Shown here: positions 24,183 through 39,062 of the stretch, piece after piece
Layout of the letters: each line of letters starts with the position of its first letter
Numbering within the stretch: the first letter of the stretch is position 1
Origin: Aestuariibaculum sp. M13
GTDB lineage: Bacteria > Bacteroidota > Bacteroidia > Flavobacteriales > Flavobacteriaceae
NCBI RefSeq assembly: GCF_024723255.1
Contig: NZ_JANIAC010000002.1
Span: 620,001-684,000 of the forward strand
Direction: 5' to 3'
Length of the DNA stretch: 64,000 nt
Made by a program: the position numbers and the translations under genes
The notes under the pieces: generated by a model
The model's input: the letters and a program-made list of their open reading frames with translations, nothing else
Told to the model about the DNA's origin: nothing
Databases searched by the model: none

Positions 24183-24228
24183 TTTTGTTTAACTTTAACT
24201 TTAAAAAATTAAACATTTTGTATCTTTA
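24183..24228 (+). promoter_or_regulatory. Promoter/operator copy A, head of the photolyase locus
   Basis: The 14-mer TTTTGTTTAACTTT (24183-24196), a 14-base spacer, then AAACATT (24211-24217) and the -7 element TATCTTTA (24221-24228), which is 20 bases before the TetR ATG. GTTTA at 24187-24191 and TAAAC at 24210-24214 form an inverted repeat with an 18-base spacer just upstream of the -7 element. The same element recurs at 32788-32833 with 36 of 45 positions identical and no gaps. Confidence 0.65.
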
Positions 24229-24248
24229 CAAATAAATAAGCTTCAGTT

Positions 24249-24905
24249 ATGGCTAAAAAAAAATCTATCTCGAAAGAAGACTTTATGTCTTATTATATGA
24301 ATTATGTTCTGGAACATAACGAACGCCCAAAGACTATATTTTCATTATGTAAAGTTATGGGAACGGAAGAACCGTTCTTCTACGAATTCTTCGGTTCTTT
24401 TGAAGGTTTAGAAAAAAACATTTTCAATCAGTTCTATATAAACACCAAAAATCTACTTGAAAAAGCCCCTGATTTCAGCGCTTTCGATTCCAGAGACAAG
24501 CTTTTGAGTTTTTACTATACATTTTTTGAAATACTGACTGCTAACAGAAGCTTTGTAGTTTTTATGTTAGATGGTTATAAAACAGATTTGAAACGTTTAA
24601 AAGTACTTTCTACACTAAGACAAAGTTTCATTGAATTTATTGAAGACTTAAACATTGAAACCATTGAAACGAAACAAAAAGACATTGATAAATTTCAGCA
24701 AAAAGCATTGACCGAATCTGCCTGGCTTCAACTAGTAGTTACAATAGAATTCTGGCTAAATGATACCTCTGCAAAATTTGAAAAAACAGATATCTTCATT
24801 GAAAAATCGGTTAATACCAGTTTCGACATTATCAATACAACACCAATAAAAAGCATAATCGACCTTGGAAAATTTCTGTTTAAAGAAAAAGTACAAATGT
24901 CTTAA
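24249..24905 (+). CDS. TetR-family transcriptional regulator
   Basis: A 218-residue protein with an N-terminal helix-turn-helix (about 1-55: FSLCKVMGTEEPFFYEFFGS as recognition region) and an all-helical C-terminal ligand-binding and dimerisation domain. The second HTH helix is unusual: EEPFFYEFFGSFEGLEKNIF replaces the common ...YxHFxSKEEL pattern but keeps its spacing. It is the first gene of the 13-kb photolyase locus and lies directly downstream of an inverted-repeat operator, so it may control itself and the genes behind it. Its inducer is unknown. It could also be a passenger while another factor reads the inverted repeat. Confidence 0.78.
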   Translation: MAKKKSISKEDFMSYYMNYVLEHNERPKTIFSLCKVMGTEEPFFYEFFGSFEGLEKNIFNQFYINTKNLLEKAPDFSAFDSRDKLLSFYYTFFEILTANRSFVVFMLDGYKTDLKRLKVLSTLRQSFIEFIEDLNIETIETKQKDIDKFQQKALTESAWLQLVVTIEFWLNDTSAKFEKTDIFIEKSVNTSFDIINTTPIKSIIDLGKFLFKEKVQMS

Positions 24906-24914
24906 ACAACAGCC

Positions 24915-26228
24915 ATGAAAACCATAGATCACATACCAACATCCAAAATTCAAAGGGCCACGAAACTCGTTTCTACTGGTGCTAAAGTTGGCGTGAATTA
25001 TTTAAAATATTACGGTGATAAAATCACTAAATCTGAGGCCGAAGCCTTAGAAACGCTTAACAAAAATAACGCTGAAGATATTTACGACAGCCTAAAACAG
25101 CTTAAAGGCAGCGCTTTAAAAGTGGCACAAATGCTTAGCATGGAAAAGAATATTTTACCAACGGCCTACGTCGAAAAATTTTCTTTGTCGCAGTTTTCTG
25201 TTCCGCCGCTATCCGCGCCTTTGGTGCTAAAAACATTTAAAACAAATTTAGGGAAGTTACCAAGCCAGATTTACGACTCTTTTAACCTTAATTCTGTAAA
25301 TGCTGCCAGTATTGGTCAGGTACATGAAGCCGAAAAGGATGGGAAAAAACTTGCTGTGAAAATTCAATATCCTGGAGTCGCTAACAGTATTGCCAGCGAT
25401 TTGGCTTTGGTAAAACCTATTGCCATTAAAATGTTTAATATTAAAGGAAAGGATTCTGATAAGTATTTTAAAGAGGTAGAAAACAAACTTATTGAAGAAA
25501 CCAATTATATTTTAGAAGTTGAACAAAGTAAATTTATTGCAGAAAGCTGTAAACATATCCCGAACTTAAAGTTCCCCAATTATTACGAGAACTTGTCATC
25601 GGAGCGCATTATTACTATGGATTGGATGGACGGTGAACACCTTTCGGAATTCAACGCCCACAATTCCGATGATAAAACAGCTCAAAAACTCGGTCAGGCA
25701 CTTTGGGATTTTTATATGTACCAGATGCATGTTCTAAAAAAAGTCCATGCAGACCCGCATCCCGGAAATTTTCTGGTTTCCGAACATGGAGAACTCATTG
25801 TTCTCGATTTTGGTTGTATTAAGACTGTTCCCGATAGCTTTTACAAACCTTATTTTGAGTTAGCAAAAAAGGAAAACATCAATAATCCAGAAGTTTTTAA
25901 GGCCAAAATGTTTGAATTAGAAATATTACGAGAAGATGACAGTAAAAAAGAATTAGAGTTTTTCTCAGCTATGTTTTTCGATATGCTTAGCTTGTTTACG
26001 CAACCATTTCATGCCGAAACTTTCGACTTTTCAAACAAAGCATTTTTTAGAGCTATTTCCGAAATGGGACAACGTTACAGTAAAAGTACCGAACTTAAAC
26101 AAATGAATGGCAATCGGGGTTCTAAACATTTTATTTACATCAACCGAACCTTTTTTGGCTTATACAATCTCATGTTCGATTTAAAAGCAAAAGGCATAAA
26201 AATCAACAATTTTAAAACGCTTCAATAA
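24915..26228 (+). CDS. AarF/UbiB/ABC1-family atypical kinase
   Basis: A 437-residue protein-kinase-like ATPase. The variant KxGQ-type motif ALKVAQMLS (about 67-75) replaces the usual KLGQ sequence. The Ala-rich nucleotide loop is AASIGQVHEA (about 129-138), the catalytic-loop motif is VHADPHPGNFLV (about 274-285) and the metal-binding motif is LDFGCIK. Family members support quinone or prenyl-lipid metabolism and stress tolerance. The last base is shared with the start of the next gene, so translation is coupled. In this locus a role in lipid or quinone protection under light stress is plausible, but it is inferred from neighbours. Confidence 0.87.
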   Translation: MKTIDHIPTSKIQRATKLVSTGAKVGVNYLKYYGDKITKSEAEALETLNKNNAEDIYDSLKQLKGSALKVAQMLSMEKNILPTAYVEKFSLSQFSVPPLSAPLVLKTFKTNLGKLPSQIYDSFNLNSVNAASIGQVHEAEKDGKKLAVKIQYPGVANSIASDLALVKPIAIKMFNIKGKDSDKYFKEVENKLIEETNYILEVEQSKFIAESCKHIPNLKFPNYYENLSSERIITMDWMDGEHLSEFNAHNSDDKTAQKLGQALWDFYMYQMHVLKKVHADPHPGNFLVSEHGELIVLDFGCIKTVPDSFYKPYFELAKKENINNPEVFKAKMFELEILREDDSKKELEFFSAMFFDMLSLFTQPFHAETFDFSNKAFFRAISEMGQRYSKSTELKQMNGNRGSKHFIYINRTFFGLYNLMFDLKAKGIKINNFKTLQ

Positions 26229-26854
26229 TGTATTTCAGTAGGAACGATATTAATGACATGCATCATCTGTACCGCATCAATTTAATTAATAGTTGTTCGG
26301 GATTTAAAAGCGCCAATCTCATTGGCACCAAATCTAAGGATGGCATTGAAAATGTGGCTGTGTTTAGCTCGGTAACGCATTTAGGTAGTCATCCGCCACT
26401 TCTCGGTTTCGTCCTGCGACCAACTACCGTTCTAAGAAATACCTACGAAAACATCAAGGAAACCGGTGTTTACACCATTAATCACATACATAAATCCATT
26501 ATTGAAGATGCGCATCATACGTCGGCAAAATACAGTAAAGACGTTTCTGAATTTGAAGTAACAAACTTAATATCAGAATATAAGACTGGCTGTTTTGCTC
26601 CATTTGTTCAAAATGCTCCGGTGCAGTTACAAATGAGATATGTTTCTGAATATTTTATTAAAGAAAACGATACCATTCTACTTATTGGAGAAGTTGAAGG
26701 CTTGTTTTTAAATGATGATTTACTCGAAGACGACGGATTTATAAATCTTTCAAAAGCTGAAATTGCTTCCATTAACGGACTAGACGCCTATACGATTCCG
26801 AAGTTTGAAAAACGTCTGGAATACCAGCGCCCAAAGCAATTATCAGAAAACTAA
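26228..26854 (+). CDS. Flavin reductase-like, FMN-binding split-barrel protein
   Basis: A 208-residue protein of the flavin reductase / FMN-binding split-barrel group. The FMN-contacting region is SCSGFKSANLIGTKSKDGIE through AVFSSVTHLGSHPPLLGFVL, with TYENIKETGVYTINHI after it, a typical order for this family. It would bind FMN and either reduce it or use it in an oxidoreductase reaction. The start ATG overlaps the stop of the kinase gene by one base. Its presence beside four flavoproteins that need reduced FAD is notable, but no direct supply has been shown. Confidence 0.82.
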   Translation: MYFSRNDINDMHHLYRINLINSCSGFKSANLIGTKSKDGIENVAVFSSVTHLGSHPPLLGFVLRPTTVLRNTYENIKETGVYTINHIHKSIIEDAHHTSAKYSKDVSEFEVTNLISEYKTGCFAPFVQNAPVQLQMRYVSEYFIKENDTILLIGEVEGLFLNDDLLEDDGFINLSKAEIASINGLDAYTIPKFEKRLEYQRPKQLSEN

Positions 26855-26871
26855 TTTAAAAATATACAACC

Positions 26872-28296
26872 ATGAAAGTTCTCATTACAGGAGCAACAGG
26901 CTACATTGGGAAACGCATCATCCCTCTCCTTTTAAACGAAGGGCATAGTGTAGTTTGCGCTGTTCGCGGAAAACTGAGAACCGAACAAAAATTTTTTGAT
27001 GAAGAGGACATTGAAGTTGTTGAAGCCGATTTTTTAAAACCCGAAACATTAGGAAATATCCCGAAAGATATTGATGCAGCCTACTACTTGATTCATTCCA
27101 TGTCTACGTCGGTAGACCAGTTTCATAAAATGGAAGAAGCCTGTGCTGTTAATTTCAAAAACTATATCGAAACCACGAATGCCAGACAGGTTATTTACCT
27201 AAGCGGCATTACCAACGACACCAAGCTCTCTAAACATTTGTTATCGAGAAAAAATGTAGAAAACACTTTAAAATCTAAGGTTTATGCCTTGACCGTCTTC
27301 AAAGCAGGTATTATTGTAGGTTCTGGTAGTGCCAGCTTCGAAATCATTAGAGATTTAGTTGAAAAACTCCCTGTGATGGTTACTCCAAAATGGCTGAATA
27401 CCAAAACACAGCCTATTGGTATTAGAGATGTTTTAAGCTTTTTGGTTAAGGCTTTAGGCCGAACAGAACTTTATAATAGATCTCACGATATTTTCGGTCC
27501 GGAAATTTTAACTTATAAAACCATGTTGCTGGAGTTTGCTGAAATCCGACAATTAAAACGATACATTGTTACGCTCCCGGTTATGACACCTAAACTATCC
27601 AGTTACTGGCTGTATTTTGTTACATCCACATCATACAAACTCGCCAGAAGTCTAGTAAACAGCATGGGGATAGAAATTATTGGAAAACCCAGTAATATTA
27701 ATGCGTTATTAGAAGTTAAGCCTATGACTTACAAAGATGCTGTTGCATTAGCGTTCGAAAAAATTGAAAGTAATCATATTGCCTCAAGCTGGAAAGATGC
27801 CCTTATTAATAGCCGACACAAAAAACGCGCTTCAAGTAAATATTTAAAAGTTCCTAAATACGGTTGTTTTAAAGATATAAAAGAACGGCACGTCATAGAC
27901 GAACAGCGCACGTTAGATAAAATATGGTCTATTGGTGGCGAAAACGGCTGGTATTATGGTAATTTTTTATGGCAAATTCGAGGGTTTTTAGACAAACTTG
28001 TTGGAGGGATTGGTTTACGTCGTGGTCGAACTAATAAAACAGAAATACACACCGGAGATGCTTTAGATTTTTGGCGTGTGCTTATAGCCGACAGACAGCA
28101 AAAACGGTTAGTTCTTTTTGCTGAAATGAAACTACCCGGAGAAGCCTGGCTGGAGTTTAGAGTCAACAAAGGTAAAGTCTACCAACGCGCCACATTTAGA
28201 CCACGAGGTCTAGCCGGAAGACTCTATTGGTATTGTGTTTTACCTTTTCATGGTTTTATTTTTAAAGGCATGATTAACCAATTAGCCAAAGCTTAA
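26872..28296 (+). CDS. NAD(P)-binding epimerase-like protein with DUF2867 C-terminal domain
   Basis: A 474-residue protein. The N-terminal atypical short-chain dehydrogenase fold has VLITGATGYIGKRIIPLLL (2-20) and YYLIHSM, but no clear Tyr-x-x-x-Lys pair in the usual place. Residues about 320-474 are a DUF2867 domain (GGENGWYYGNFLWQIRGFLD, GDALDFWRVL, PGEAWLEFRV). Proteins of this architecture are frequent next to photolyases in bacteria, with unknown substrate. It precedes the DUF2256 microgene by two bases, so it belongs to the same operon. Confidence 0.85.
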   Translation: MKVLITGATGYIGKRIIPLLLNEGHSVVCAVRGKLRTEQKFFDEEDIEVVEADFLKPETLGNIPKDIDAAYYLIHSMSTSVDQFHKMEEACAVNFKNYIETTNARQVIYLSGITNDTKLSKHLLSRKNVENTLKSKVYALTVFKAGIIVGSGSASFEIIRDLVEKLPVMVTPKWLNTKTQPIGIRDVLSFLVKALGRTELYNRSHDIFGPEILTYKTMLLEFAEIRQLKRYIVTLPVMTPKLSSYWLYFVTSTSYKLARSLVNSMGIEIIGKPSNINALLEVKPMTYKDAVALAFEKIESNHIASSWKDALINSRHKKRASSKYLKVPKYGCFKDIKERHVIDEQRTLDKIWSIGGENGWYYGNFLWQIRGFLDKLVGGIGLRRGRTNKTEIHTGDALDFWRVLIADRQQKRLVLFAEMKLPGEAWLEFRVNKGKVYQRATFRPRGLAGRLYWYCVLPFHGFIFKGMINQLAKA

Positions 28297-28298
28297 TT

Positions 28299-28451
28299 GT
28301 GCCAAAAACAGTAAAAAAAGAAAATTTACCGGTTAAAATATGCCCGGTTTGTAACCGACCCTTTTCGTGGCGTAAAAAATGGAAAAATCACTGGAACGAT
28401 GTAAAATATTGTAGCGAACAATGCAAACGCTGGAAAACAAAACAAGCTTAA
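28299..28451 (+). CDS. DUF2256 zinc-ribbon microprotein
   Basis: A 50-residue protein starting at GTG 28299. Four Cys in two pairs (KICPVCNRPFSWRKKW and YCSEQCKRW) form a likely zinc ribbon, with the WRKKWKNHWNDVKYCS signature of DUF2256. Such proteins are found beside photolyase or cryptochrome genes in many bacteria, and their function is unknown. The GTG lies two bases after the previous stop. The gene's last 31 bases overlap the CRY-DASH gene, which starts at an ATG in another frame. Confidence 0.85.
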   Translation: MPKTVKKENLPVKICPVCNRPFSWRKKWKNHWNDVKYCSEQCKRWKTKQA

Positions 28452-29734
28452 TCTGGTTTCGAAATAATTTAAGGATTCATGATAATTCGTCCATAACAAA
28501 AGCCATTACTAAGGGCAAGAAAGTCATTGCTGTTTACTGTTTCGACCCCAGACAATTTAAAATGAACCGTTTCGGATTTAAAAAGACCGAAAAATTTCGT
28601 GCCAGATTTCTAATTGAATCTGTTTCCGATTTAAAAAATAATCTTAAAAAACATAACATTCCATTATTCGTTTATCTCGATAAACCTGAAAACTGCATTC
28701 CTAATTTAGTTGTCAACCATCAAGTTACCGAAATTTATCTTCAGGAAGAATGGACACCAGAAGAAACTTCTGTACTTAGAAAAGTTAAGAATCAACTTTC
28801 CAAGAATATTCTTTTTACAACATCTTACGATCAGTTTTTATTTCACCCACTAGATTTACCATTTAAAATTGAACATCTTCCAAATGTATTTACCGACTTC
28901 CGGAAAATTATTGAAAAACAGATTAATGTTCGGCCCATTTGTAAAGACTACCTCATTAATTTCAATCAACCAAAAATTAATAATACCACTAAAATTCCTT
29001 CGTTAACAGATTTAGGATTTGAAGATTTCAAGACACACCCTAAAAGCGCATTTCCTTTTAAAGGAGGTGAGACCAAAGCCTTAAAACATATTCAACATTA
29101 TATGTTCAACACTAAAAACCTAGGGGTTTACAAAAACACAAGAAATGGACTTATTGGTACAGACTACAGCTCTAAGCTATCACCCTGGCTAGCCAATGGA
29201 TGCGTTTCTGCTAAACTTATTTATTATAAAGTAAAGCAGTTTGAAAAAGAATATTTCAGTAATCAATCCACCTACTGGCTCGTCTTCGAACTCATCTGGA
29301 GAGACTATTTCAAATACCTATCTCTAAAAAACGGAAATCTCATTTTTAAAATTGAAGGCATCCTTGATAAAACTTACCCATGGTTAAACGATAATGATAT
29401 CATTCTAAAATGGATAGAAGGCAAAACACCTGAACCTTTCGTTAATGCTAATATGATTGAACTTAACAAAACAGGCTGGATGAGTAATCGTGGTAGACAA
29501 AATGTAGCCAGCTACTTTGCTAAACATTTAAAATTAGACTGGCGCATTGGAGCCAGTTATTTTGAAATTCTGCTTCTTGATTACGATGTGCACAGCAATT
29601 ATGGTAACTGGATGTATGTAGCAGGTGTAGGCAACGACCCAAGAGACCGAAAATTTAATATAAAGTCGCAAGCCGAAAATTACGACAAAAACGGTTCGTA
29701 CCAACGCTTATGGCTTAAAAATACGCTGTTTTAA
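28421..29734 (+). CDS. DASH-type cryptochrome/photolyase
   Basis: A 437-residue flavoprotein of the cryptochrome/photolyase family. The N-terminal antenna-binding domain begins SLIWFRNNLRIHDNSSITKA. The FAD-binding domain has GTDYSSKLSPWLANGCVSA (about 247-265), FELIWRDYFKYLS and the DASH hallmark YGNWMYVAGVGNDPRDRKFN (about 394-413). DASH enzymes bind FAD and often methenyl-tetrahydrofolate, repair cyclobutane dimers in single-stranded DNA and may also signal. The gene starts inside the DUF2256 gene, and no later ATG fits. Cytosolic. Confidence 0.9.
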   Translation: MQTLENKTSLIWFRNNLRIHDNSSITKAITKGKKVIAVYCFDPRQFKMNRFGFKKTEKFRARFLIESVSDLKNNLKKHNIPLFVYLDKPENCIPNLVVNHQVTEIYLQEEWTPEETSVLRKVKNQLSKNILFTTSYDQFLFHPLDLPFKIEHLPNVFTDFRKIIEKQINVRPICKDYLINFNQPKINNTTKIPSLTDLGFEDFKTHPKSAFPFKGGETKALKHIQHYMFNTKNLGVYKNTRNGLIGTDYSSKLSPWLANGCVSAKLIYYKVKQFEKEYFSNQSTYWLVFELIWRDYFKYLSLKNGNLIFKIEGILDKTYPWLNDNDIILKWIEGKTPEPFVNANMIELNKTGWMSNRGRQNVASYFAKHLKLDWRIGASYFEILLLDYDVHSNYGNWMYVAGVGNDPRDRKFNIKSQAENYDKNGSYQRLWLKNTLF

Positions 29735-29737
29735 AAT

Positions 29738-31270
29738 TTGAAAACCCTTAGACTTATACTAGGCGACCAACTAAACAGCAAACACAGCTGGTATAAAACA
29801 AAGCAGGATAATTACGTGTATTGTATGTTTGAAATGCGTCAGGAAACCGATTATGTCACGCATCATATTCAAAAAATTACTGGCTTCTTTGCTGCCATGC
29901 GCGATTTTGCAAGGTTATTAAAATCTAAAGGCTTCCAAGTTGAATACATCACGTTAGACAATCCTAAAAACACTCAAAATCTGGTTGAGAATTTAAATAT
30001 ACTCATCAATATCTTTAACATTGAAAAATTTGAATACCAGCTTCCTGACGAGTATAGATTGGACGAGCAACTACTTAATTTCACAAAAACACTGGCAATA
30101 CCATCGCGAGCATTTTCAACCGAACATTTTTATACGAAACGCTTTGATTTAAAAACTTTTTTCAAGGATAAAAATCACCACCTTATGGAAACGTTTTACC
30201 GCCATATGCGTAAAAAACACAACATTTTAATAGTTGCGAATCAACCGGAAGGCGGCAAATGGAATTTCGATAAAAGCAATAGAAACAAATGGAAAGGCTC
30301 TCCCGATATTCCGCCATATAAGAACTTCGATAATGAGGTTTCAAATATTCTGGAATTGATAAAAAGTAAAAACATAAAAACCATTGGAATATTTGAGGCT
30401 CATACTTTCGAATACCCTATAAACCGAGAGCAAGCTTTAAGTCAACTTAAATACTTTTGTGAAAATCTTCTGGTTCATTTTGGCGATTATCAGGACGCTA
30501 TGCACACAAAGGAAGTGAATCTATATCACTCTCGATTGTCATTTGCAATGAATTTGAAACTCATTTCACCAAAAAACGTTGTCGATACCGTTTTAAATTA
30601 CTGGACCCAATACGGTAATCACATCCAGATTTCACAAGTAGAAGGCTTTATAAGGCAAATTATTGGCTGGCGAGAATATATGAGAGGCATGTACTGGGCT
30701 TTCATGCCGGATTACAAAACCTTAAATCATTTAAAAAGCACCCAAGCACTTCCTGATTTTTACTGGACAGGAAACACAAAAATGAATTGTCTGAAACATT
30801 GCATTACCAACAGCTTAAATAACGGTTATGCACACCACATTCAACGCCTTATGGTTACAGGTAACTTTGCATTATTAGCTCAAATTCATCCAGACGAAGT
30901 CGATAAATGGTATTTAGGGATATATATAGATGCTATAGAATGGGTGCAACTCCCAAACACGCGAGGCATGAGTCAATTTGCCGACGGTGGAAAAATCGCA
31001 ACAAAACCTTACGTTTCCAGTGGAAGATACATTAATAAAATGAGCAATTATTGTGACTCCTGTCTATACAATAAAAATGAAAAATCAGGAGATAATGCCT
31101 GCCCCTTTAATAGTTTATACTGGAATTTTTTATTTGAAAAACGCAATGCTCTAAAAGATAACCATCGTATGCAGATGATGTTTAACCTTCTTGATAACAT
31201 GGATAAAAATCAATTAATAAAAATAAGAGCACGAGCACAGAAAATTATTGAATCGCCAGATGAATTTTAA
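29738..31270 (+). CDS. Fe-S bacterial cryptochrome/photolyase (FeS-BCP, (6-4)-photolyase type)
   Basis: A 510-residue member of the iron-sulfur photolyase class (PhrB-like), whose studied members repair (6-4) photoproducts and bind FAD, a lumazine antenna and a 4Fe-4S cluster. Cys351, Cys439, Cys442 and Cys455 sit at the spacing expected for the cluster (MNCLKHC, YCDSC, NACPFN). [19 protein letters not shown] (about 363-381) and [17 protein letters not shown] (about 402-418) are class hallmarks. It starts at TTG 29738, three bases after the CRY-DASH stop ([13 protein letters not shown]), as no ATG precedes this conserved start. Confidence 0.9.
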
Positions 31271-31277
31271 CAAAAAC

Positions 31278-32762
31278 ATGAAACAAAATTTAAGCATTGT
31301 CTGGTTAAAAAGAGATCTTCGATTACATGATAACGAAGCTATTACGAATGCCATAGCAACTAATCATCGGGTACTCCTGCTCTATGTTTTCGAAGACTTC
31401 TTACTTCAAGACCAACATTATACCGAACGGCATTGGAATTTTGTAAAAGAATCTTTAAAAGACCTAAACAACACGCTTGCGAATTATCATTCAAAAGTAT
31501 TTATCATCAATAGTTCCATTGAAAGAACGATACAATCGCTTCAAAATAGTTTTAACATTCAAGAGGTATTTTCACATCAGGAAACAGGAATAAATTCTAC
31601 TTACAAAAGAGATATCGCTTTTGCTGAATTTTGCAAATTAAACAACATAACATGGAAAGAAAACATAAATAACGGCATTCAAAGGGGCCTTTCAAATCGA
31701 GCCACATGGATTAAGGACTGGGAATATTTTATGTCTATACCTGAATTCATTTTCAACCCTAAACCAGAACAACTACTTTCTATAAACGAAATCAACACCT
31801 TAGAAATACCTTTTAAGACGGTTAATTTAATCACACTTGGCACCAATACATTTCAGAAAGGAGGAACAACTATGGGCTTAAAATACATGAGATCTTTCTT
31901 TAACAATCGCTTTGAAAATTACATGATTCACATTTCAAAGCCCTCAGAGTCGCGAACTGCCTGCAGCCGATTATCCCCTTACCTGGCATGGGGTAATATA
32001 TCTGTAAAACAGGTGTTAAACGCGGCCCAAAAAACTTATCAAAATTCAAAACATAAACGTCAATTAAACGCCTTTACATCACGTTTGCGCTGGCAGGCAC
32101 ACTTTATTCAAAAGTTTGAAATGGAACATGAGATGGAGTTCAGGAGTGTAAATAAAGGATATTCCATTCTAAAAAAACCAAAAAACAACGACTATCAGGA
32201 AGCCTGGAAATCGGGTAACACTGGTTTTCCTTTAGTTGATGCATGCATGCGCTGCCTTAAGGAAACCGGCTATTTAAACTTTAGAATGCGGGCCATGGTC
32301 GTTTCATTCTTCACGCATAATTTATGGCAACCGTGGGAAGATTTAAGCCCCTATCTTGCCAGTTTATTCCTTGACTTCGAACCTGGTATCCACTACCCTC
32401 AAATTCAAATGCAGGCCGGAGAAACCGGAATTAATACGTTACGTATTTACAATCCTTTAAAAAACAGTATAGAACTTGATCCCAAAGGTACATTTATTAA
32501 AAAATGGGTTCCTGAACTTGAGGGGCTGGAAACACCTTTTATTCACAACCCTAGTAAAATGACCTATTTTGACCAACAACTTTCAGGTTTTGAAATAGGA
32601 AAAGATTACCCATTTCCCATTGTAGACGAGCAAACTACCCGTCAACATGCCAGCAAAATTTTATGGAATATGAAAAATAATACATTAGTTAAACAAGAAA
32701 GCTTTCGCATCTTAAAACGTCATACCTTAAGTAGTAAGAACAACGAATTAAAAAATAAGTAA
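31278..32762 (+). CDS. Deviant photolyase/cryptochrome-family protein
   Basis: A 494-residue flavoprotein. The antenna domain begins [23 protein letters not shown]-domain elements include [14 protein letters not shown] and [20 protein letters not shown]. At the position where class I enzymes have the proximal electron-transfer tryptophan (NxGxWQW) this protein reads [20 protein letters not shown], so Trp-Gln-Trp is replaced by Ile-Gln-Met. It is thus a distinct class, not a duplicate of the enzyme at 36007. The ATG at 31278 is chosen because residues from [15 protein letters not shown] match family N-termini. An ATG at 31260 and a TTG at 31248 are alternatives overlapping the previous gene. 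Whether it repairs DNA or signals is unknown. Confidence 0.85.
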
Positions 32763-32787
32763 AGCCAAAACTGTGTAGATTGTTAAT

Positions 32788-32833
32788 TTTTGTTTAACTT
32801 TTACAAACAAAAGATAAACATTATGTATTTTTG
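32788..32833 (+). promoter_or_regulatory. Promoter/operator copy B inside the photolyase locus
   Basis: TTTTGTTTAACTTT (32788-32801), a 14-base spacer, AAACATT (32816-32822) and the perfect -7 element TATTTTTG (32826-32833). GTTTA (32792-32796) and TAAAC (32815-32819) form an inverted repeat with an 18-base spacer. It lies in the only gap of about 90 bases between the gene at 31278 and the gene at 32853, 19 bases before the latter's start. It matches copy A at 24183-24228 in every fixed position of the design. Confidence 0.65.
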
Positions 32834-32852
32834 AATCATAAAATAACACCAA

Positions 32853-33278
32853 TTGATTTTAGACACTTCATATACAAACAAGGCTAACAACGAATTAATA
32901 AATGATTTGGTAGGTAGACCTTACAGTATTTTTGAAAAATTAAAGTTAAGAGGCGTTGGATCTAAACGAATGATTATTGAGCAGGCAAGTCCTAATTTTA
33001 AACCTTTTTTGAATAGTAATTCAAATATTAATTACGCTAATTTAGAATTACGTCCTAAAGGCCTTTTAATTCGATTTAACAAAGGATTACAAACCTTCAC
33101 CTGGATTATACCCTTTTATCATCTGACTTTATTTAAAATAAACGGATCCAGCATACATGCTCAAGGAAAATTTATTCATTTTAAAAACAACATCACGTTT
33201 AAAGAAAATAAGAATTTCTTTAAAAAATTAATCGATAGAAAATTACAGTTTGACAAACAATATAATTTCAATTTGTAA
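32853..33278 (+). CDS. Protein of unknown function in the photolyase locus
   Basis: A 141-residue soluble protein read from TTG 32853 (MILDTSYTNKANNELINDLVG); no ATG gives the full frame. The C-terminal half consists of alternating strands (ANLELRPKGLLIRFNKGLQTF, WIIPFYHLTLFKINGSSIHA) that look like a PH-like or small beta-barrel fold. I do not recognise the family. It is the first gene behind promoter copy B and shares its last base with the start of the DUF2805 gene, so the two are coupled. Confidence 0.65.
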   Translation: MILDTSYTNKANNELINDLVGRPYSIFEKLKLRGVGSKRMIIEQASPNFKPFLNSNSNINYANLELRPKGLLIRFNKGLQTFTWIIPFYHLTLFKINGSSIHAQGKFIHFKNNITFKENKNFFKKLIDRKLQFDKQYNFNL

Positions 33279-33559
33279 TGATAAGCAGCATATTTTCAGA
33301 ACGAGAACTTGACCGAATTATTGAAATGGCCTGGGAAGACCGTACACCTTTTGAGGCTATAACATTTCAATTTCAACTTAAAGAACAGGAAGTTATCGAA
33401 ATTATGCGAAAAGAAATGAAACCCGGAAGCTTTAAACTTTGGCGTAATCGGATACAAGGAAGAGTCACTAAACATAAAAAATTGAGAGACTTCGAAAATG
33501 GACGATTTAAAAGTTACAGCCAAAAACAAATCACAGGAAACAAAATTTCAAAAAGGTAA
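33278..33559 (+). CDS. DUF2805/TIGR03643-family protein
   Basis: A 93-residue basic, helical protein. It contains a helix-turn-helix-like stretch (ELDRIIEMAWEDRTPFEAIT, then FQLKEQEVIEIMRKEM) and the family signature KPGSFKLWRNRIQGRVTKHK. It occurs beside DUF2256 and photolyase genes in other bacteria, function unknown. The sequence looks capable of nucleic-acid binding, but this is inferred from the helix-turn-helix shape and the positive charge of the second half. Its ATG overlaps the previous stop by one base. Confidence 0.82.
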   Translation: MISSIFSERELDRIIEMAWEDRTPFEAITFQFQLKEQEVIEIMRKEMKPGSFKLWRNRIQGRVTKHKKLRDFENGRFKSYSQKQITGNKISKR

Positions 33560-33607
33560 ACATAGTAGAGACTTAAAATAAAAAATAACATCTAAACTAA
33601 AAACACC

Positions 33608-33838
33608 ATGAGTACAATTGAACAAGCCTTAGCATTTGAACAAACCAGCCTAAAATCATTATCTACTAACGATCGCATTAAATTATCCAGACAGGCAAAA
33701 GCCTTGATTTTAGATTTAAATCAAATCTACAAAGCAAAAAAAGACCAAAGCATTATGGATTTAATGAAACGCTTAACCGCCATTAAACGTAAAGTAGAAA
33801 AGCGCTTAAATGGTAAGCATTTACTAAACAATATCTAA
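33608..33838 (+). CDS. Small helical protein of unknown function
   Basis: A 76-residue protein that should be entirely alpha-helical: two amphipathic helices at about 18-45 (NDRIKLSRQAKALILDLNQI) and 47-68 (DLMKRLTAIKRKVEKRL). No Cys or recognised motif is present. The position 48 bases after DUF2805 and one base before the SDR gene makes it part of the locus. I do not recognise the family. Confidence 0.6.
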   Translation: MSTIEQALAFEQTSLKSLSTNDRIKLSRQAKALILDLNQIYKAKKDQSIMDLMKRLTAIKRKVEKRLNGKHLLNNI

Positions 33839-33839
33839 A

Positions 33840-34523
33840 ATGAAATCAGTAATTATTATTGGAGGAAGTAAAGGCATTGGCAATGCTATTTTAAATCAGC
33901 TTATAGACACACACAAAGTCATAAACCTGAGCAGAACAGCTCCCAGTCAGCAACATACCAACCTTCTACATAAAAATTACAACGTTTTAACTGACGAGTT
34001 ACCGGAAATTGAAGCAGCCGATGCTTTAATTTACTGTCCGGGGAGCATTAATTTAAAACCCTTTTCAAGATTATCAATTGATGAATTTAAAGCAGATTTT
34101 GAAATTAATGTCTTAGGCGCCATTAAAGTAATTCAACACTATTTACCTGTTTTGAGGCAAGGAAAAAACCCCTCAATACTCTTGTTTAGTACGGTGGCAA
34201 CAAAGTTAGGCATGCCATTTCACACCAGTGTAGCCATGGCTAAATCGGGCGTTGAAGGTTTGGTGAAATCTTTAGGAGCCGAACTCGCACCCAGCGTTAG
34301 AATAAATGGTATCGCTCCCTCGGTTACCGATACCGAATTAGCATCGAAATTACTTAGAAACGAAAAAATGATTGAAACGATTACAGAACGCCATCCATTA
34401 AAAAAACTATTAAAACCTGAAGAAGTTGCGGAATTGGCTGTATTTTTAATTTCCGATAAAGCATTAGCCATGTCTGGACAAATTTTCCAGATGGATAACG
34501 GCATCGTAACATTTAAAATCTAA
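33840..34523 (+). CDS. Short-chain dehydrogenase/reductase (SDR)
   Basis: A 227-residue NAD(P)-dependent oxidoreductase. The cofactor loop is IIGGSKGIGNAIL (5-17). The Asn of VLGAIKV lies in the active-site helix. LLFSTVATKLGMPFHTSVAMAKSG replaces the usual Tyr-x-x-x-Lys with Val-Ala-Met-Ala-Lys: the catalytic Lys is present, but the Tyr position appears to be another residue, so the activity may differ from classical SDRs. NGIAPSVTDTELASK and GQIFQMDNGI are ordinary for the family. It starts one base after the 76-residue gene. The substrate is unknown. Confidence 0.82.
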   Translation: MKSVIIIGGSKGIGNAILNQLIDTHKVINLSRTAPSQQHTNLLHKNYNVLTDELPEIEAADALIYCPGSINLKPFSRLSIDEFKADFEINVLGAIKVIQHYLPVLRQGKNPSILLFSTVATKLGMPFHTSVAMAKSGVEGLVKSLGAELAPSVRINGIAPSVTDTELASKLLRNEKMIETITERHPLKKLLKPEEVAELAVFLISDKALAMSGQIFQMDNGIVTFKI

Positions 34524-34537
34524 ATAAATAACATTCA

Positions 34538-35083
34538 ATGAGAAATTCAATTTTAATCCTAATTACCATGTTTTCATTCTTTACAAAATCTAATGCACAA
34601 GCCACCCCTGTAGAATCCATTTATGACATACAAATTAACAGTCTTGAAAGTGAACCTATAGATTTATCAACCTTTAAAGGTAAAAATATACTTTTTGTTA
34701 ATGTGGCTTCAAAATGCGGATTTACCGGGCAATATGAAGATTTGCAAAAGCTTTATGACACCTATCAAGACAACCTAATGATTATTGGAGTGCCTTGTAA
34801 CCAGTTCGGTAGTCAGGAGCCTGGTACTGCCGAAGACATTCAAACGTTTTGCCAACGAAACTATGGGGTAACGTTTTTAATGACCGAAAAAGTCAATGTT
34901 AAAGGCGACAACCAACATCCGCTTTACCAATGGCTCACCCAAAAAGCAAAAAACGGGAATATGGATACCTCAGTAAAATGGAACTTTCAAAAATATTTGG
35001 TAAATGGCAATGGACAATTAGTTGATTACTACCTATCGGCTACAAAACCTTTAAGCGATAAGATTACACAACATTTACAATGA
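34538..35083 (+). CDS. Exported glutathione/thioredoxin peroxidase (GPx family)
   Basis: A 181-residue thiol peroxidase that reduces lipid or hydrogen peroxides. The signal peptide is MRNSILILITMFSFFTKSNA, and the mature part is a full GPx fold: VASKCGFTGQYEDLQKLYD with peroxidatic Cys60, VPCNQFGSQEPG (about 85-96), and WNFQKYLV with the conserved Trp. The Cys version (no selenocysteine) with a second Cys in VPCNQF suits thioredoxin-dependent use. It overlaps the TspO gene by four bases (ATGA). Peroxide defence in the envelope fits the photo-oxidative theme of the locus. Confidence 0.92.
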   Translation: MRNSILILITMFSFFTKSNAQATPVESIYDIQINSLESEPIDLSTFKGKNILFVNVASKCGFTGQYEDLQKLYDTYQDNLMIIGVPCNQFGSQEPGTAEDIQTFCQRNYGVTFLMTEKVNVKGDNQHPLYQWLTQKAKNGNMDTSVKWNFQKYLVNGNGQLVDYYLSATKPLSDKITQHLQ

Positions 35084-35541
35084 AAAAAGTAAAGTATTTT
35101 TTAGTCTTTCTTATCATAAATTTCGGAGCTTTAGCTTTAGGGGTCTGGTTGATGCAAAATGGCCCCCTTTCGGAATGGTATTTTAATTTAAATAAAGCCC
35201 CCTGGACACCTCCGGGCTGGGTCTTTGGTGCGGCATGGAGTTTCATTATGTTCTGTTTTTCAATCTACATTGCGTTTTTATGGAACAGCGATTCTTCAAA
35301 AAAAGTAAAATCACTTTTTACTGTTCAATTTTTACTAAATGTAGGTTGGAATTATGTGTTTTTTAATCGACATCTGGTAGGTTTGGGCCTTGTAGTCATA
35401 CTGCTTCTAACAGCTATTATCTGTATTTTTCAATATGATTACCGAAAAATTCTGGGTTTAAAATCCTTGTTTATCACCCCATACATGCTTTGGCTATTTA
35501 TTGCAAATTCACTTAACTTATACATTTGGCTTTACAACTAA
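35080..35541 (+). CDS. tspO: TspO/MBR-family membrane protein
   Basis: A 153-residue protein with five TM helices. The first loop holds the family's NLNKAPWTPPGWVFGAAWSF signature (about 37-56), and LLNVGWNYVFFNRHLVGLG is the helix with the Trp-Asn site. TspO binds porphyrins such as protoporphyrin IX and has been tied to oxygen and light control of photosynthesis genes and to porphyrin-linked oxidative stress. Its start overlaps the GPx stop by four bases. Here, without photosynthesis genes in view, a role in handling light-reactive porphyrins is the most natural guess. Confidence 0.93.
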   Translation: MKKVKYFLVFLIINFGALALGVWLMQNGPLSEWYFNLNKAPWTPPGWVFGAAWSFIMFCFSIYIAFLWNSDSSKKVKSLFTVQFLLNVGWNYVFFNRHLVGLGLVVILLLTAIICIFQYDYRKILGLKSLFITPYMLWLFIANSLNLYIWLYN

Positions 35542-35544
35542 ATT

Positions 35545-36006
35545 ATGAAGATTTATACTTTACATAAAAAGCAAAACTTACCCATTAGCGTTGACGAAGC
35601 CTGGGCATTTTTTTCGGATCCTAAAAATCTAAAAACCATCACGCCCGATTATATGAGCTTCGATATCCTTTCGGGTGCCGATCGTCCTATGTTTTCTGGT
35701 CAGATTATACAATATATCGTCACGCCTATTTTAGGCATAAAAACCAAATGGGTTACCGAAATTACACATGTGGTCGACAAACAATATTTTGTAGATGAGC
35801 AACGCTTCGGCCCCTACCGTTTATGGCACCATAAGCATTTTATAAAACCTATTGATGGGGGTGTTGAAATGGAAGATATTGTAGATTACAAGCTTCCTTT
35901 TGGATTTCTTGGTCAACTCGTTCATCCTATCATGGTTAAACCTAAACTTGAAGAAATTTTTAACTACAGAACTAAAAAATTAGAAGCCCTTTTCGGAACA
36001 CTATAA
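35545..36006 (+). CDS. SRPBCC (START-like) domain protein
   Basis: A 153-residue single-domain protein with the helix-grip fold that encloses a hydrophobic ligand. FFSDPKNLKTITPDYMSFDI, FSGQIIQYIV and GGVEMEDIVDYKLPFG are typical of the ligand-binding SRPBCC proteins next to photolyases. Its ligand is unknown; a porphyrin, carotenoid precursor or lipid is possible. It ends immediately before the ATG of the class I photolyase. Confidence 0.85.
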   Translation: MKIYTLHKKQNLPISVDEAWAFFSDPKNLKTITPDYMSFDILSGADRPMFSGQIIQYIVTPILGIKTKWVTEITHVVDKQYFVDEQRFGPYRLWHHKHFIKPIDGGVEMEDIVDYKLPFGFLGQLVHPIMVKPKLEEIFNYRTKKLEALFGTL

Positions 36007-37314
36007 ATGAAAAAAACAATAAACATCTTCTGGTTTCGTCGCGATCTACGACTTCATGATAACCACGGACTTTTTGAAGCCTTGTCATCTGAACATCCTG
36101 TTTTACCTGTGTTTATTTTTGACATTGAAATCTTAGATAAACTCCCTAAAGATGATGCCAGAGTTACTTTTATTTTTGACGCACTTGAGCACATCAAATC
36201 CACTCTTAAAGGAAAGCATCGTAAATCGTTAGCCATTTATTTTGGTAAACCTTTGGATATTTATAAAACCATTTGCGAAACCTACCACATAAATACGGTG
36301 TTTACCAATCACGATTACGAGCCGTATGCTATGAAACGTGATGCAGAAATTGAAGCGTTCTTAAAAACCAAAAGTATAAATTTCAAAACATTTAAAGATC
36401 AGGTAATTTTTGAGCGTAACGACATTACAAAAGCCGATGGCACCCCTTATGTTGTGTATACGCCATATATGAAGGTTTGGAAATCACATTTTAAATCTCA
36501 AAAAATCACATCTTACCCAAGCGAATCTTTATTAAATGAAATAATTGATGAGCAATCTTTACCAAATGTCGATTTAGAAACTATCGGCTTTACAAGGTCG
36601 GCACAACATATTGAAGATTATAAAATAAATCCTGAACTCATTTCAACTTACGAAGACCTAAGAAATTTTCCTGCTAAAGACGCCACTTCAAAATTAGGCC
36701 CTCACCTACGTTTTGGTACGGTAAGTGTGCGAGTTATGGCCAATAAAGCCAACCAATCTAAAAATGAAGTCTTTCTTCAGGAATTAATTTGGCGTGAGTT
36801 TTTTATGCAGATTTTATGGCATTTTCCACATACGGTTACCAAAAGTTTCAAACCATCCTACGATAGGATTATCTGGAGAAATAATGAAGAAGAATTTAAA
36901 GCCTGGTGTGAAGGAAAAACAGGTTATCCTCTGGTTGATGCCGGGATGAGACAACTCAATGCTACCGGATTTATGCATAACCGTGTAAGAATGCTTGTTG
37001 GTAGCTTTTTATGTAAACATTTATTAATCGACTGGCGTTGGGGTGAAGCCTACTTTGCTGAAAAACTGCACGACTACGAGATGGCCAGTAATATTGGAAA
37101 CTGGCAATGGGTGGCTGGATCTGGTGTAGATGCTGCTCCTTACTTTAGGATTTTTAATCCGACCACACAAATTGAAAAATTCGATAAAAATTTAGAGTAT
37201 ATCAGACAATGGGTTCCCGAATTTCAAGAACTCACCTACCCGCAGCCCATAGTCGATCATAAATTTGCTCGCGAACGCTGTTTGAAAGTCTATAAGGAAG
37301 CTTTAAACAATTAA
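36007..37314 (+). CDS. phrB: Class I cyclobutane-dimer DNA photolyase
   Basis: A 435-residue flavoenzyme that splits cyclobutane pyrimidine dimers with blue or near-UV light. The antenna domain begins [20 protein letters not shown]. The FAD-binding domain has ATSKLGPHLRFGTVSVRVM, GYPLVDAGMRQLNATGFMHN, RMLVGSFLCKHLLIDWRWGE, and the diagnostic ASNIGNWQWVAGSGVDAAPY with both tryptophans, followed by FRIFNP. This is the normal class I pattern. It is the last of the co-directional run, and the gap to the fhs gene is 80 bases. Start ATG 36007 follows the SRPBCC stop without a gap. Confidence 0.93.
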   Translation: MKKTINIFWFRRDLRLHDNHGLFEALSSEHPVLPVFIFDIEILDKLPKDDARVTFIFDALEHIKSTLKGKHRKSLAIYFGKPLDIYKTICETYHINTVFTNHDYEPYAMKRDAEIEAFLKTKSINFKTFKDQVIFERNDITKADGTPYVVYTPYMKVWKSHFKSQKITSYPSESLLNEIIDEQSLPNVDLETIGFTRSAQHIEDYKINPELISTYEDLRNFPAKDATSKLGPHLRFGTVSVRVMANKANQSKNEVFLQELIWREFFMQILWHFPHTVTKSFKPSYDRIIWRNNEEEFKAWCEGKTGYPLVDAGMRQLNATGFMHNRVRMLVGSFLCKHLLIDWRWGEAYFAEKLHDYEMASNIGNWQWVAGSGVDAAPYFRIFNPTTQIEKFDKNLEYIRQWVPEFQELTYPQPIVDHKFARERCLKVYKEALNN

Positions 37315-37394: not shown

Positions 37395-39062
37395 ATGACT
37401 GATTTAGACATAGCAAAAACTGTTACTCTAAAACCTATTACTCAAATTTCTGAAATGTTTGGCATCAACCCCGACGACATTGAAATGTACGGAAAGTATA
37501 AAGCCAAGATTCCATTACAATATATTAACAAAGAAAAGGCTCAAAAAAGCAACCTGATATTAGTTTCTGCTATTTCACCTACTCCTGCAGGCGAAGGTAA
37601 AACAACCATGTCTATTGGGCTTTCTGAAGGCTTGAATCGGTTAAACAAAAAAACAACCGTTGTTTTAAGAGAACCATCTTTAGGACCTGTTTTTGGAATA
37701 AAAGGTGGTGCCACTGGAGGTGGATATTCGCAGGTACTTCCAATGGAAGATATTAACCTTCATTTTACCGGTGACTTTTCAGCCATTGAAAAGGCACACA
37801 ACCTCTTGGCAGCCATCATCGATAATAATATTCAAAGCAAAACCAATTCGCTGCAATTAGACCCAAGAACCATAAGCTGGAAGCGTGTGGTTGATTTAAA
37901 CGACCGTGCCTTAAGACGTGTTATTGTAGGATTGGGCGGAACAACATCGGGTATTCCAAGAGAAACGGGGTTCGACATTACGGCGGCCTCTGAAATTATG
38001 GCCATTCTTTGTTTGGCTCAAAATATTACCGATTTAAAAACACGATTAGGCAAAATTTTTATTGGCTACACCTTTAATAAACAACCTATTTACGCTAAAG
38101 ATTTAAAAGCCGAAGGTGCCATGGCTGCTTTATTAAAGGATGCTATAAAACCTAATTTAGTCCAGACTATCGAAGGTAATCCGGCCATTATTCATGGTGG
38201 ACCATTTGCAAACATCGCTCAAGGAACCAACTCGGTTATTGCGACACTTATGGGGATGTCGCATTCTGAATACACGGTAACCGAAGCAGGTTTTGGTTTC
38301 GATTTGGGTGCCGAAAAATTTTTCGATATAAAATGTCAAAGTGCGGGATTAAAACCAAAAGCCGTTGTGCTTACCACTACTATTCGCGCTTTAAAATATC
38401 ATGGTGGTGCCGATTTAAAATCATTAACCGAAGAAAACATTGAAGTTTTAAAAAACGGACTTCCCAACCTTGAAAAACACCTTGAGAATATTGCAAAGTT
38501 TAACGTGATTCCAGTTATAGCCATTAATAAATTTTCAAGTGATACTCAAGCTGAAATAGATGTCATTAAAACCTTTGCTGCTGCAAAACAAATTAAAATA
38601 GCAGTAGCCGACATTTGGGCCAAAGGTGGTGAAGGCGCTTTAGATTTAGCTCAACAGGTTATAGATGTTGTAGAATCTCCCCATTCAGATTTTAAACCGT
38701 TATACAACTGGAAATCGCCTGTTAAAACTAAAATAGAAACTATAGCAAAAGAAATTTATGGTGCCGAGCATGTTGATTATACAGCAAAGGCAAAATCTCA
38801 TCTCCAAAAAATTTCTGATTTAAAACTCGATCACTTACCCGTTTGTATTGCAAAAACACAAAAATCATTATCCGACAATCCTAAACTGTTGGGGCGTCCA
38901 AAGGATTTTATCATTACTGTTAGAGAAATAGAAATTGCAGCTGGAGCCGGCTTTTTAATTCCAATCACCGGCGACATTATGCGTATGCCAGGACTTCCCG
39001 CCCACCCTGCTTCAGAACACATAGACATTAATGATAATGGAGAAATTAGCGGGTTGTTTTAA
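37395..39062 (+). CDS. fhs: Formate--tetrahydrofolate ligase
   Basis: ATP-dependent enzyme (555 residues) that makes 10-formyl-tetrahydrofolate from formate and THF for purine and one-carbon metabolism. The nucleotide loop is SPTPAGEGKTTMSIGLSEGL (about 57-76). LREPSLGPVFGIKGGATGGG (about 85-104) and IHGGPFANIAQGTNS (about 259-273) are family signatures. Its length is normal. It follows the photolyase locus on the same strand but looks like an ordinary metabolic gene with its own promoter region. The ATG at 37390 is closed by a stop after two codons, so 37395 is the start. Confidence 0.97.
   Translation: MTDLDIAKTVTLKPITQISEMFGINPDDIEMYGKYKAKIPLQYINKEKAQKSNLILVSAISPTPAGEGKTTMSIGLSEGLNRLNKKTTVVLREPSLGPVFGIKGGATGGGYSQVLPMEDINLHFTGDFSAIEKAHNLLAAIIDNNIQSKTNSLQLDPRTISWKRVVDLNDRALRRVIVGLGGTTSGIPRETGFDITAASEIMAILCLAQNITDLKTRLGKIFIGYTFNKQPIYAKDLKAEGAMAALLKDAIKPNLVQTIEGNPAIIHGGPFANIAQGTNSVIATLMGMSHSEYTVTEAGFGFDLGAEKFFDIKCQSAGLKPKAVVLTTTIRALKYHGGADLKSLTEENIEVLKNGLPNLEKHLENIAKFNVIPVIAINKFSSDTQAEIDVIKTFAAAKQIKIAVADIWAKGGEGALDLAQQVIDVVESPHSDFKPLYNWKSPVKTKIETIAKEIYGAEHVDYTAKAKSHLQKISDLKLDHLPVCIAKTQKSLSDNPKLLGRPKDFIITVREIEIAAGAGFLIPITGDIMRMPGLPAHPASEHIDINDNGEISGLF

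Follow-up and report, generated by a model that had tools for sequence, protein, structure and literature searches.

What controls a compact group of genes for four different photolyases, and what does this group do? The question is raised by a stretch of 64,000 nucleotides from Aestuariibaculum sp. M13 (contig NZ_JANIAC010000002.1, positions 620,001 to 684,000; the whole stretch is called the window here), in which 16 co-directional genes at 24249-37314 include four photolyase/cryptochrome paralogues, as identified with Pfam and NCBIfam profiles. Two predicted promoters of this operon carry an inverted repeat, TGTTTAAC-N14-GTTAAACA, and the same repeat is found upstream of the TetR regulator gene of many relatives. 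The operon is probably a light-induced unit for photorepair and photo-oxidative protection, which would be repressed in the dark by a CarH-type regulator via this repeat.

In the dark, an adenosylcobalamin-bound MerR repressor of the CarH/LitR type, encoded elsewhere in the genome beside carotenoid genes, would occupy the repeat and thereby overlap two predicted promoters, one before the TetR gene and one before the gene of a 141-amino-acid (141-aa) protein. Light would cleave the B12 cofactor and CarH would be released, upon which both halves of the operon would rise together with the carotenoids and, where present, rhodopsin. The induced set would consist of the four photolyase-family enzymes and their putative partners DUF2256 and DUF2805, together with oxidoreductases, a glutathione peroxidase (GPx) and TspO; the TetR regulator would perhaps provide a second input. 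As the operon and the carotenoid genes next to CarH probably have one control sequence in common, a single light sensor may turn on the whole of the protection against sunlight. An original prediction, made from the window sequence alone, had described the operon as a unit against light damage, and its photoprotective part gains support from the operator shared with the crt genes on the CarH side and with some rhodopsin promoters.

The inverted repeat and its distribution

With at most two mismatches, the repeat occurs exactly twice in the window, at 24186-24215 and 32791-32820 on the plus strand; dinucleotide shuffles of the window gave 0.08 sites on average and no shuffle had two. Predicted operator 1, TGTTTAAC-N14-ATTAAACA, lies 33 bases upstream of the TetR start codon and has one mismatch to the symmetric consensus, as has predicted operator 2, TGTTTAAC-N14-GATAAACA, which lies ahead of the second half of the operon. 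Both stand 5 bases ahead of a TAnnTTT[A/G] box on the same strand, TATCTTTA at 24221-24228 (its last base is off consensus) and TATTTTTG at 32826-32833. We labelled these boxes after the Bacteroidetes -7 consensus, TAnnTTTG, and regard them as possible promoter elements. A second promoter thus labelled seems to lie in the 90-base gap before 32853, the widest of the operon. Judged by eye, the arrangement of operator 1 and its box is similar in many relatives.

A search with the 141-aa protein yielded 23 loci in named organisms, all Flavobacteriaceae (Algibacter, Hyunsoonleella, Winogradskyella, Psychroserpens, Hanstruepera, Lacinutrix, Seonamhaeicola, Formosa and members of the family without a genus name). 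At up to two mismatches, the first site accompanies TetR in 20 of 21 loci, L056 being the exception; two of the 23 loci, L051 and L056, lack the second site, which the other 21 have. Among 120 genomes of the family, CarH is matched in 96 and TetR in 76; the exact pattern, with R at one position, was found in 73 of the 120 and a reversed control in 5. Upstream of TetR, 61 of the 76 genomes have a site with at most two mismatches, against 1 in 380 shuffles. Over the order, the exact symmetric form is found in 34 of 196 genomes (family f1 accounts for 14 and family f6 for 20) and a control pattern in 5. Each of the 20 genomes of family f6 has one perfect copy of the operator.

The CarH-type gene and candidate targets

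A search of the Aestuariibaculum genome with a looser pattern yielded six places, one of which (L097) is a 46-base gap with a MerR gene on one side and a crtI-like gene on the other. The MerR protein (G000:C1:25544-26440) matches MerR_1 (PF13411, 53.9 bits) and B12-binding_2 (PF02607, 41.3 bits), with a match to PF02310 (14.4 bits) below the cut-off. Its top structural matches in the PDB are 3whp and the CarH structure 5c8d (4.1e-14), both from Thermus thermophilus. W131, E141 and H142 are named as cobalamin signature residues in the accessible part of a published study (PMC11796333), and the corresponding W-x9-EH is found in this protein and, with it included, in 81 of 95 homologues. These were drawn from 95 of 97 places and 86 of 87 orthologue genomes, leaving out an incomplete match in G298 and the second match of G249. 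The genes that follow carH are crtI-, crtB-, crtZ- and cyclase-like, as named by eye from their translations. By its domains, its W-x9-EH signature and its crt-like neighbours, the regulator would belong to the CarH/LitR type. The idea that the genome has no CarH, derived from a search with PF02310, was rejected because the gene adjoins an operator match and matches PF02607.

Allowing one mismatch, only four sites occur in this genome: the two of the operon, the one in the crtI gap and one at C7:107560, which precedes a gene for a secreted protein whose counterpart in the congener G307 is a fasciclin (Pfam). No operator with up to two mismatches lies near either folE gene. Three of the places given by the looser pattern look like chance matches, namely C1:1247022, with phage-like genes as judged by eye, C3:606403, inside an open reading frame (ORF; L100:4022-6691), and C3:644877, which is window 24877-24908 at the junction of the TetR and ABC1 genes and has a wider spacer.

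Among the CarH orthologues, 46 of 86 have a site with at most two mismatches within 200 bases downstream of carH and before the next gene (shuffles 0 of 475); when the surroundings including 400 bases upstream are searched, 53 of 86 do (shuffles 0 of 1720). A rhodopsin match is present in 25 of the 120 family genomes, 24 of them above the cut-off; the search gave none in the Aestuariibaculum genome. At that same threshold, ten of the 25 rhodopsin promoters carry a site (shuffles 0 of 500), and in L326, a locus of genome G310, a site lies in the gap between the rhodopsin and beta-carotene dioxygenase genes.

A survey of 40 additional regions and L098 gave 43 sites with at most one mismatch, four of them within long ORFs; targets were named with Pfam on ten proteins, two of which have no family, or by eye. 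Eight sites adjoin an mnmA-like gene (by eye), and in seven of these a secreted-type gene lies opposite, which in the tested case, L302, is a fasciclin by Pfam. Other sites precede the 141-aa gene (three), 76-aa-like genes (two), the SDR-DUF2867 gene in G213, where TetR is lacking, GPx, an SRPBCC-like gene (by eye), 6-pyruvoyl-tetrahydropterin synthase and an ALO-type oxidase. Fasciclin-type secreted genes beside an mnmA-like gene recurrently bear the operator, as at L098:5567-6590 and in relatives, and copies stand ahead of similar secreted genes in L304, L312 (Porph_ging by Pfam) and L338.

Which regulator binds the repeat

According to the available part of a published account, the CarH repeat is nnnnTnnACAn, arranged as tandem 11-bp direct repeats (PMC9304148). 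Each arm of our element contains TnnACA. The presence of a CarH orthologue goes along with that of the operon site: among TetR genomes, 58 of 68 with an orthologue have the site and 3 of 8 without (Fisher p 0.006, uncorrected). Moreover, the carH/crt site is present, at up to two mismatches, in 8 of 18 examined genomes that have CarH and no detected TetR. TetR was detected with one query at E<=1e-10, so that other TetR paralogues are possible in these genomes.

We also scored the surroundings of nine diverged CarH homologues (33-38% identity) for a variant, TGTCTAAC..GTTAGACA, with spacers of 13-15. At TetR, forms of this TGTCTAA/TTAGACA variant with one mismatch are found in G231, G233 and G258 (shuffles 0 of 300 at up to one mismatch), and in G231 and G233 the site is nearer to the variant than to the consensus, from which it differs at three positions. 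Near carH, the variant fits better in G290 (one mismatch), G081 and G258 (two each) and G222 (three), with 1 of 450 shuffles at two or fewer. The arms TAAACA and TAGACA both fit the published repeat, since the altered base falls in nn. Operator variants alongside diverged CarH proteins are thus suggestive of CarH as the binder, in a pattern that is uneven and not clean.

Several observations weigh against repression by CarH. The half-sites are inverted and 22 bp apart instead of forming tandem 11-bp direct repeats, and operator 1 adjoins the TetR gene, whose product is an ordinary suspect. G219, G258 and G271 keep the consensus without a CarH orthologue (G258 and G271 are about 80% complete); in G219 it is perfect at TetR, with neither form near the carH homologue (four mismatches), and in G258 the TetR site is one mismatch from both consensus and variant. 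Near carH, the two forms tie in G231 and G208 (two mismatches), the site of G233 is three mismatches off, even though the variant beats the consensus there, and that of G201 is nearer to the consensus (two); at TetR, neither form fits in G208 or G201. The W-x9-EH signature is missing from 14 of the 95 homologues, 40 of the 86 orthologues have no site of up to two mismatches within 200 bases downstream, and 15 of the 25 rhodopsin promoters have none. In the Aestuariibaculum genome itself, up to two mismatches give 11 sites against 7 for a control pattern, so the weaker sites are noise. Finally, the script shuffles preserve base composition only and the genomes examined are related, so that the odds against chance are overstated.

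In one alternative, CarH is not the binder here: the TetR_C_23 protein would bind the repeat and autoregulate the unit on sensing a chemical that photo-oxidation produces. A symmetric inverted repeat ahead of the own gene is typical of TetR regulators, the repeat does adjoin the TetR gene, and the site occurs in three of the eight TetR genomes without a CarH orthologue, one of which, G219, has a perfect site there and none at its carH homologue. The element at carH/crt in genomes without detected TetR, the variants that accompany diverged CarH in several genomes and the TnnACA in the arms weaken TetR as sole binder, and we consider this explanation unlikely. An arrangement in which both regulators act on overlapping sites, CarH conveying light and TetR a second damage or redox input, is quite possible and overlaps with the explanation by CarH. 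It agrees with the wide occurrence of both matches in the family (96 and 76 of the 120 genomes) and with TetR leading the operon in 21 of the 23 loci; against it, a single conserved element was noticed upstream of TetR, where no systematic search for a separate TetR motif was made.

The operon might also be a mere DNA-repair island without common light control, its element being an AT-rich promoter feature. The genome is AT-rich, the probable core promoter elements coincide in part with the site or lie next to it, and the script shuffles are mononucleotide shuffles. However, real sequence served as a control as well: a site with at most two mismatches is present in 31 of 361 upstream regions, and 30 of these are explained by TetR and its divergent neighbour, crtI, fasciclin/mnmA and the 141-aa promoter, leaving one unexplained. 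Together with the reversed control (5 against 73 of the 120 genomes), the rarity of sites in the dinucleotide shuffles of the window and the sites elsewhere ahead of crt, rhodopsin, GPx and SDR genes, this makes such an island very improbable.

The proposed unit resembles several known systems. Like the CarH/LitR systems for carotenoid control in Thermus, Myxococcus and Bacillus megaterium, as far as the accessible text describes them (PMC9304148), the present one has a MerR regulator with a B12 domain beside crt-like genes and TnnACA half-sites; unlike theirs, its half-sites are not 11-bp direct repeats in tandem but stand inverted and 22 bp apart, and its candidate targets include photolyases and some rhodopsin genes. 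In Pseudomonas, the part of the report available gives PhrB, UfaM, FolE and CryB as the light regulon of class II LitR/PplR, with an SDR and a FAD oxidoreductase in the cluster (PMC9758184). A photolyase, a cryptochrome-like gene and a nearby SDR are shared with the window, and folE with 22 of the 23 relatives' loci. Whereas the Pseudomonas system, in that portion of the report, relies on class II LitR and a short LOV photoreceptor, the window's set is larger, is headed by TetR and would answer to a CarH with the B12 signature (LOV genes were not searched for).

Light induction itself would not be new, since crt genes in Chryseobacterium lacus and, reportedly, photolyase transcripts in Dokdonia rise in light. 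For the latter, Kimura is said to have described in ISME J in 2011 that cryptochrome and photolyase transcripts of strain MED134 are up in light. In C. lacus, also of the Flavobacteriales, RNA-seq showed light-induced crt genes among only 11 genes that changed; in the accessible text of that paper the word photolyase occurs nowhere and the regulator is not named (PMC7064467). Among the matches listed in our literature searches, none described such a CarH/photolyase regulon in Bacteroidetes or Flavobacteria by its title or the start of its abstract. As far as these searches show, the novelty would lie in the CarH link and in the operator.

A wider reading, which we put forward tentatively as coming close to an even chance, would make CarH the master light switch of the Flavobacteriaceae, acting through one operator on the photolyase operon, carotenoids, rhodopsin with its retinal enzyme and secreted fasciclins, and would place the deviant photolyase of the operon (PhrDev) in a class so far undescribed, in which the pocket for flavin and lesion is rebuilt and which acts with DUF2256 and DUF2805. 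Control by CarH would be a testable explanation of how light is coupled, in marine flavobacteria, to the photorepair of DNA, to carotenoids and, in some species, to phototrophy with rhodopsin. The proposed operator geometry differs from that of published CarH operators, as given in the available part of PMC9304148, and two families of unknown function, DUF2256 and DUF2805, become linked to FeS and deviant photolyases.

Photolyases, small proteins and gene order

All named families and the four photolyase classes of the original prediction were confirmed by Pfam and NCBIfam. In the whole genome (4.16 Mb), Pfam profile searches found three genes matching PF03441 and one matching PF04244, all inside the operon. 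The three enzymes other than PhrDev resemble ordinary members of their families. CRY-DASH (28421-29734) scores 523.5 bits with TIGR02765, above the cut-off of 317.05, and matches PDB 1np7 (6.4e-120). The FeS-BCP or prokaryotic (6-4) photolyase (DPRP; 29738-31270; PF04244, 243.7 bits) has four cysteines in its C-terminal half that align with those of 7ykn (1.3e-159), as expected of an FeS enzyme. The class I CPD-type photolyase (36007-37314; PF03441, 258.6 bits; PDB 4u63, 8.6e-87) keeps E274, N341, M345, N378, W382 and W384 of E. coli Phr, all canonical residues.

PhrDev (31248-32762; PF03441, 209.8 bits), a FAD_binding_7 protein, departs from class I CPD photolyases at most of the positions surveyed, to which functional roles are assigned in E. 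coli Phr. In an alignment of 27 members, with Halorubrum left out, E274R, N341F, M345A, N378H and W384M are found in all 27 and W382 is never W; W306 is kept in 1, W277 in 27 and W359 in 26. PhrDev is a member of a clade that spans several phyla and in which changes at canonical positions are fixed. Plasmids of Vibrio, Salinivibrio, Tritonibacter, Deinococcus, Persicobacter, Novosphingobium, Duffyella, Halorubrum and others encode similar proteins (33-45% identity in those named). Since the replacements are fixed, they argue for a working but different enzyme. DUF2256 directly follows PhrDev in Salinivibrio and Tritonibacter; in Vibrio fortis it is followed by a flavin reductase. On a Deinococcus proteolyticus plasmid (L085:4998-7271), PhrDev is fused to a C-terminal uracil-DNA glycosylase domain, a fusion that hints at a substrate, possibly dimers with deaminated cytosine. 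Five other Deinococcus records among the matches listed are annotated likewise. A bifunctional enzyme of the PhrSph98 type was set aside, without sequence comparison, because the accessible text places PhrSph98 with class II photolyases (PMC9649867).

DUF2256 (28299-28451; PF10013, 70.3 bits), a small cysteine-rich protein with a GTG start, and DUF2805/TIGR03643 (33278-33559; PF10985, 117.9 bits; TIGR03643, 114.6 bits) had been said to sit often near photolyases and to act in the same process. In L049 and L055, CRY-DASH, FeS-BCP, PhrDev, DUF2256 and DUF2805 are jointly missing, whereas the class I photolyase is retained along with most of the remaining genes; this pattern of loss links DUF2256 and DUF2805 with the FeS and deviant photolyases. 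Across the 196 genomes of the order, in a count uncorrected for kinship, 85 have a strong DUF2805 match, 75 have DPRP and 71 have both, with 14 holding DUF2805 only and 4 DPRP only; 12 genomes with weak DUF2805 matches alone and one DPRP match below the cut-off (G025) are set aside. If the 12 are counted, 71 of 97 genomes with DUF2805 also have DPRP. Among 34 compared pairs of DUF2805 and DPRP that share a contig, 18 lie at most 5 kb apart, and an Acinetobacter plasmid carries TIGR03643 and DUF2256 genes side by side with one for a cryptochrome/photolyase.

Half of the 18 order-level DUF2805 neighbourhoods outside the Aestuariibaculum genome, however, are without the photolyases of the operon. 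Nine have at least one match to a photolyase profile of the operon (L065-L068, L071-L073, L075 and L076, with a weak match of 56 bits only in L072); in the other nine (L064, L069, L070, L074 and L077-L081), none of these photolyases is found in the stretch of about 20 kb around DUF2805. A Nostoc and a Hirschia plasmid likewise carry DUF2805 or DUF2256 without a photolyase nearby, and the adjacency is therefore not obligate. Co-loss and the overlap of 71 of 85 genomes support the association that had been proposed, whereas the independent genes in relatives count against the claim that these small proteins go with photolyases throughout. No text joining any two of DUF2256, DUF2805, TIGR03643 and photolyase was found in our literature search. 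The DUF2805 model has four helices with a weak resemblance to helix-turn-helix proteins (pLDDT 72.9; best E in a fold search 1.5). In genus g2 (e.g. G002 and G017) a weaker DUF2805 paralogue of about 69-85 bits is present, and many such genomes lack the FeS photolyase.

The remaining genes lie, like those above, on the plus strand. The first half begins with the TetR_C_23-family regulator (24249-24905; PF17931, 154.7 bits, a match to the C-terminal TetR domain only), followed by an ABC1/AarF-type atypical kinase (24915-26228; PF03109, 182.3 bits), a flavin reductase-like protein (26228-26854; PF01613, 66.6 bits) and an NAD(P)-binding SDR with a C-terminal DUF2867 (26872-28296; PF11066, 117.6 bits; PF13460, 43.8 bits). 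The second half begins with the 141-aa protein (32853-33278), which has no Pfam or NCBIfam match and gives a confident model (pLDDT 89.7) with a weak resemblance to the PH/PTB fold (best E 0.05). It further holds a charged 76-aa protein, also without a match in either collection and present in two copies in several relatives (33608-33838), an SDR oxidoreductase (33840-34523; PF13561, 122.1 bits), GPx (34538-35083; PF00255, 130.6 bits), TspO/MBR (35080-35541; PF03073, 99.6 bits) and an SRPBCC protein (35545-36006; Polyketide_cyc, PF03364, 24.6 bits with a cut-off of 23.4). The compact layout described earlier holds for all 16 genes, with overlaps of up to 31 bases or gaps of up to 48, except for the 90-base gap.

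A comparison of gene neighbourhoods had been proposed as a check; within the Flavobacteriaceae, 22 of the 23 loci keep the gene order of the window, the exception being L035 with an additional upstream copy of the 76-aa gene. This conservation is far above chance. The 141-aa and SDR genes are present in all 23 loci, ABC1, TspO, SRPBCC, class I photolyase, folE and the 76-aa gene in 22, TetR, SDR-DUF2867, FeS-BCP, DUF2805 and GPx in 21, DUF2256 and a 55-58-aa ORF in 20, the flavin reductase gene in 19, CRY-DASH in 18 and PhrDev in 15; some absences may reflect contig ends, as at the start of L034 and L049. The window copy is without folE and without the 55-58-aa ORF, and both folE genes of the genome lie outside the operon. 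The places concerned are 33559-33608 and the junction of GPx and TspO near 35080. A gene for formate-tetrahydrofolate ligase lies at 37395-39062, 80 bases past the class I photolyase, and is found in that place in one of the 23 loci and in L071 and L073.

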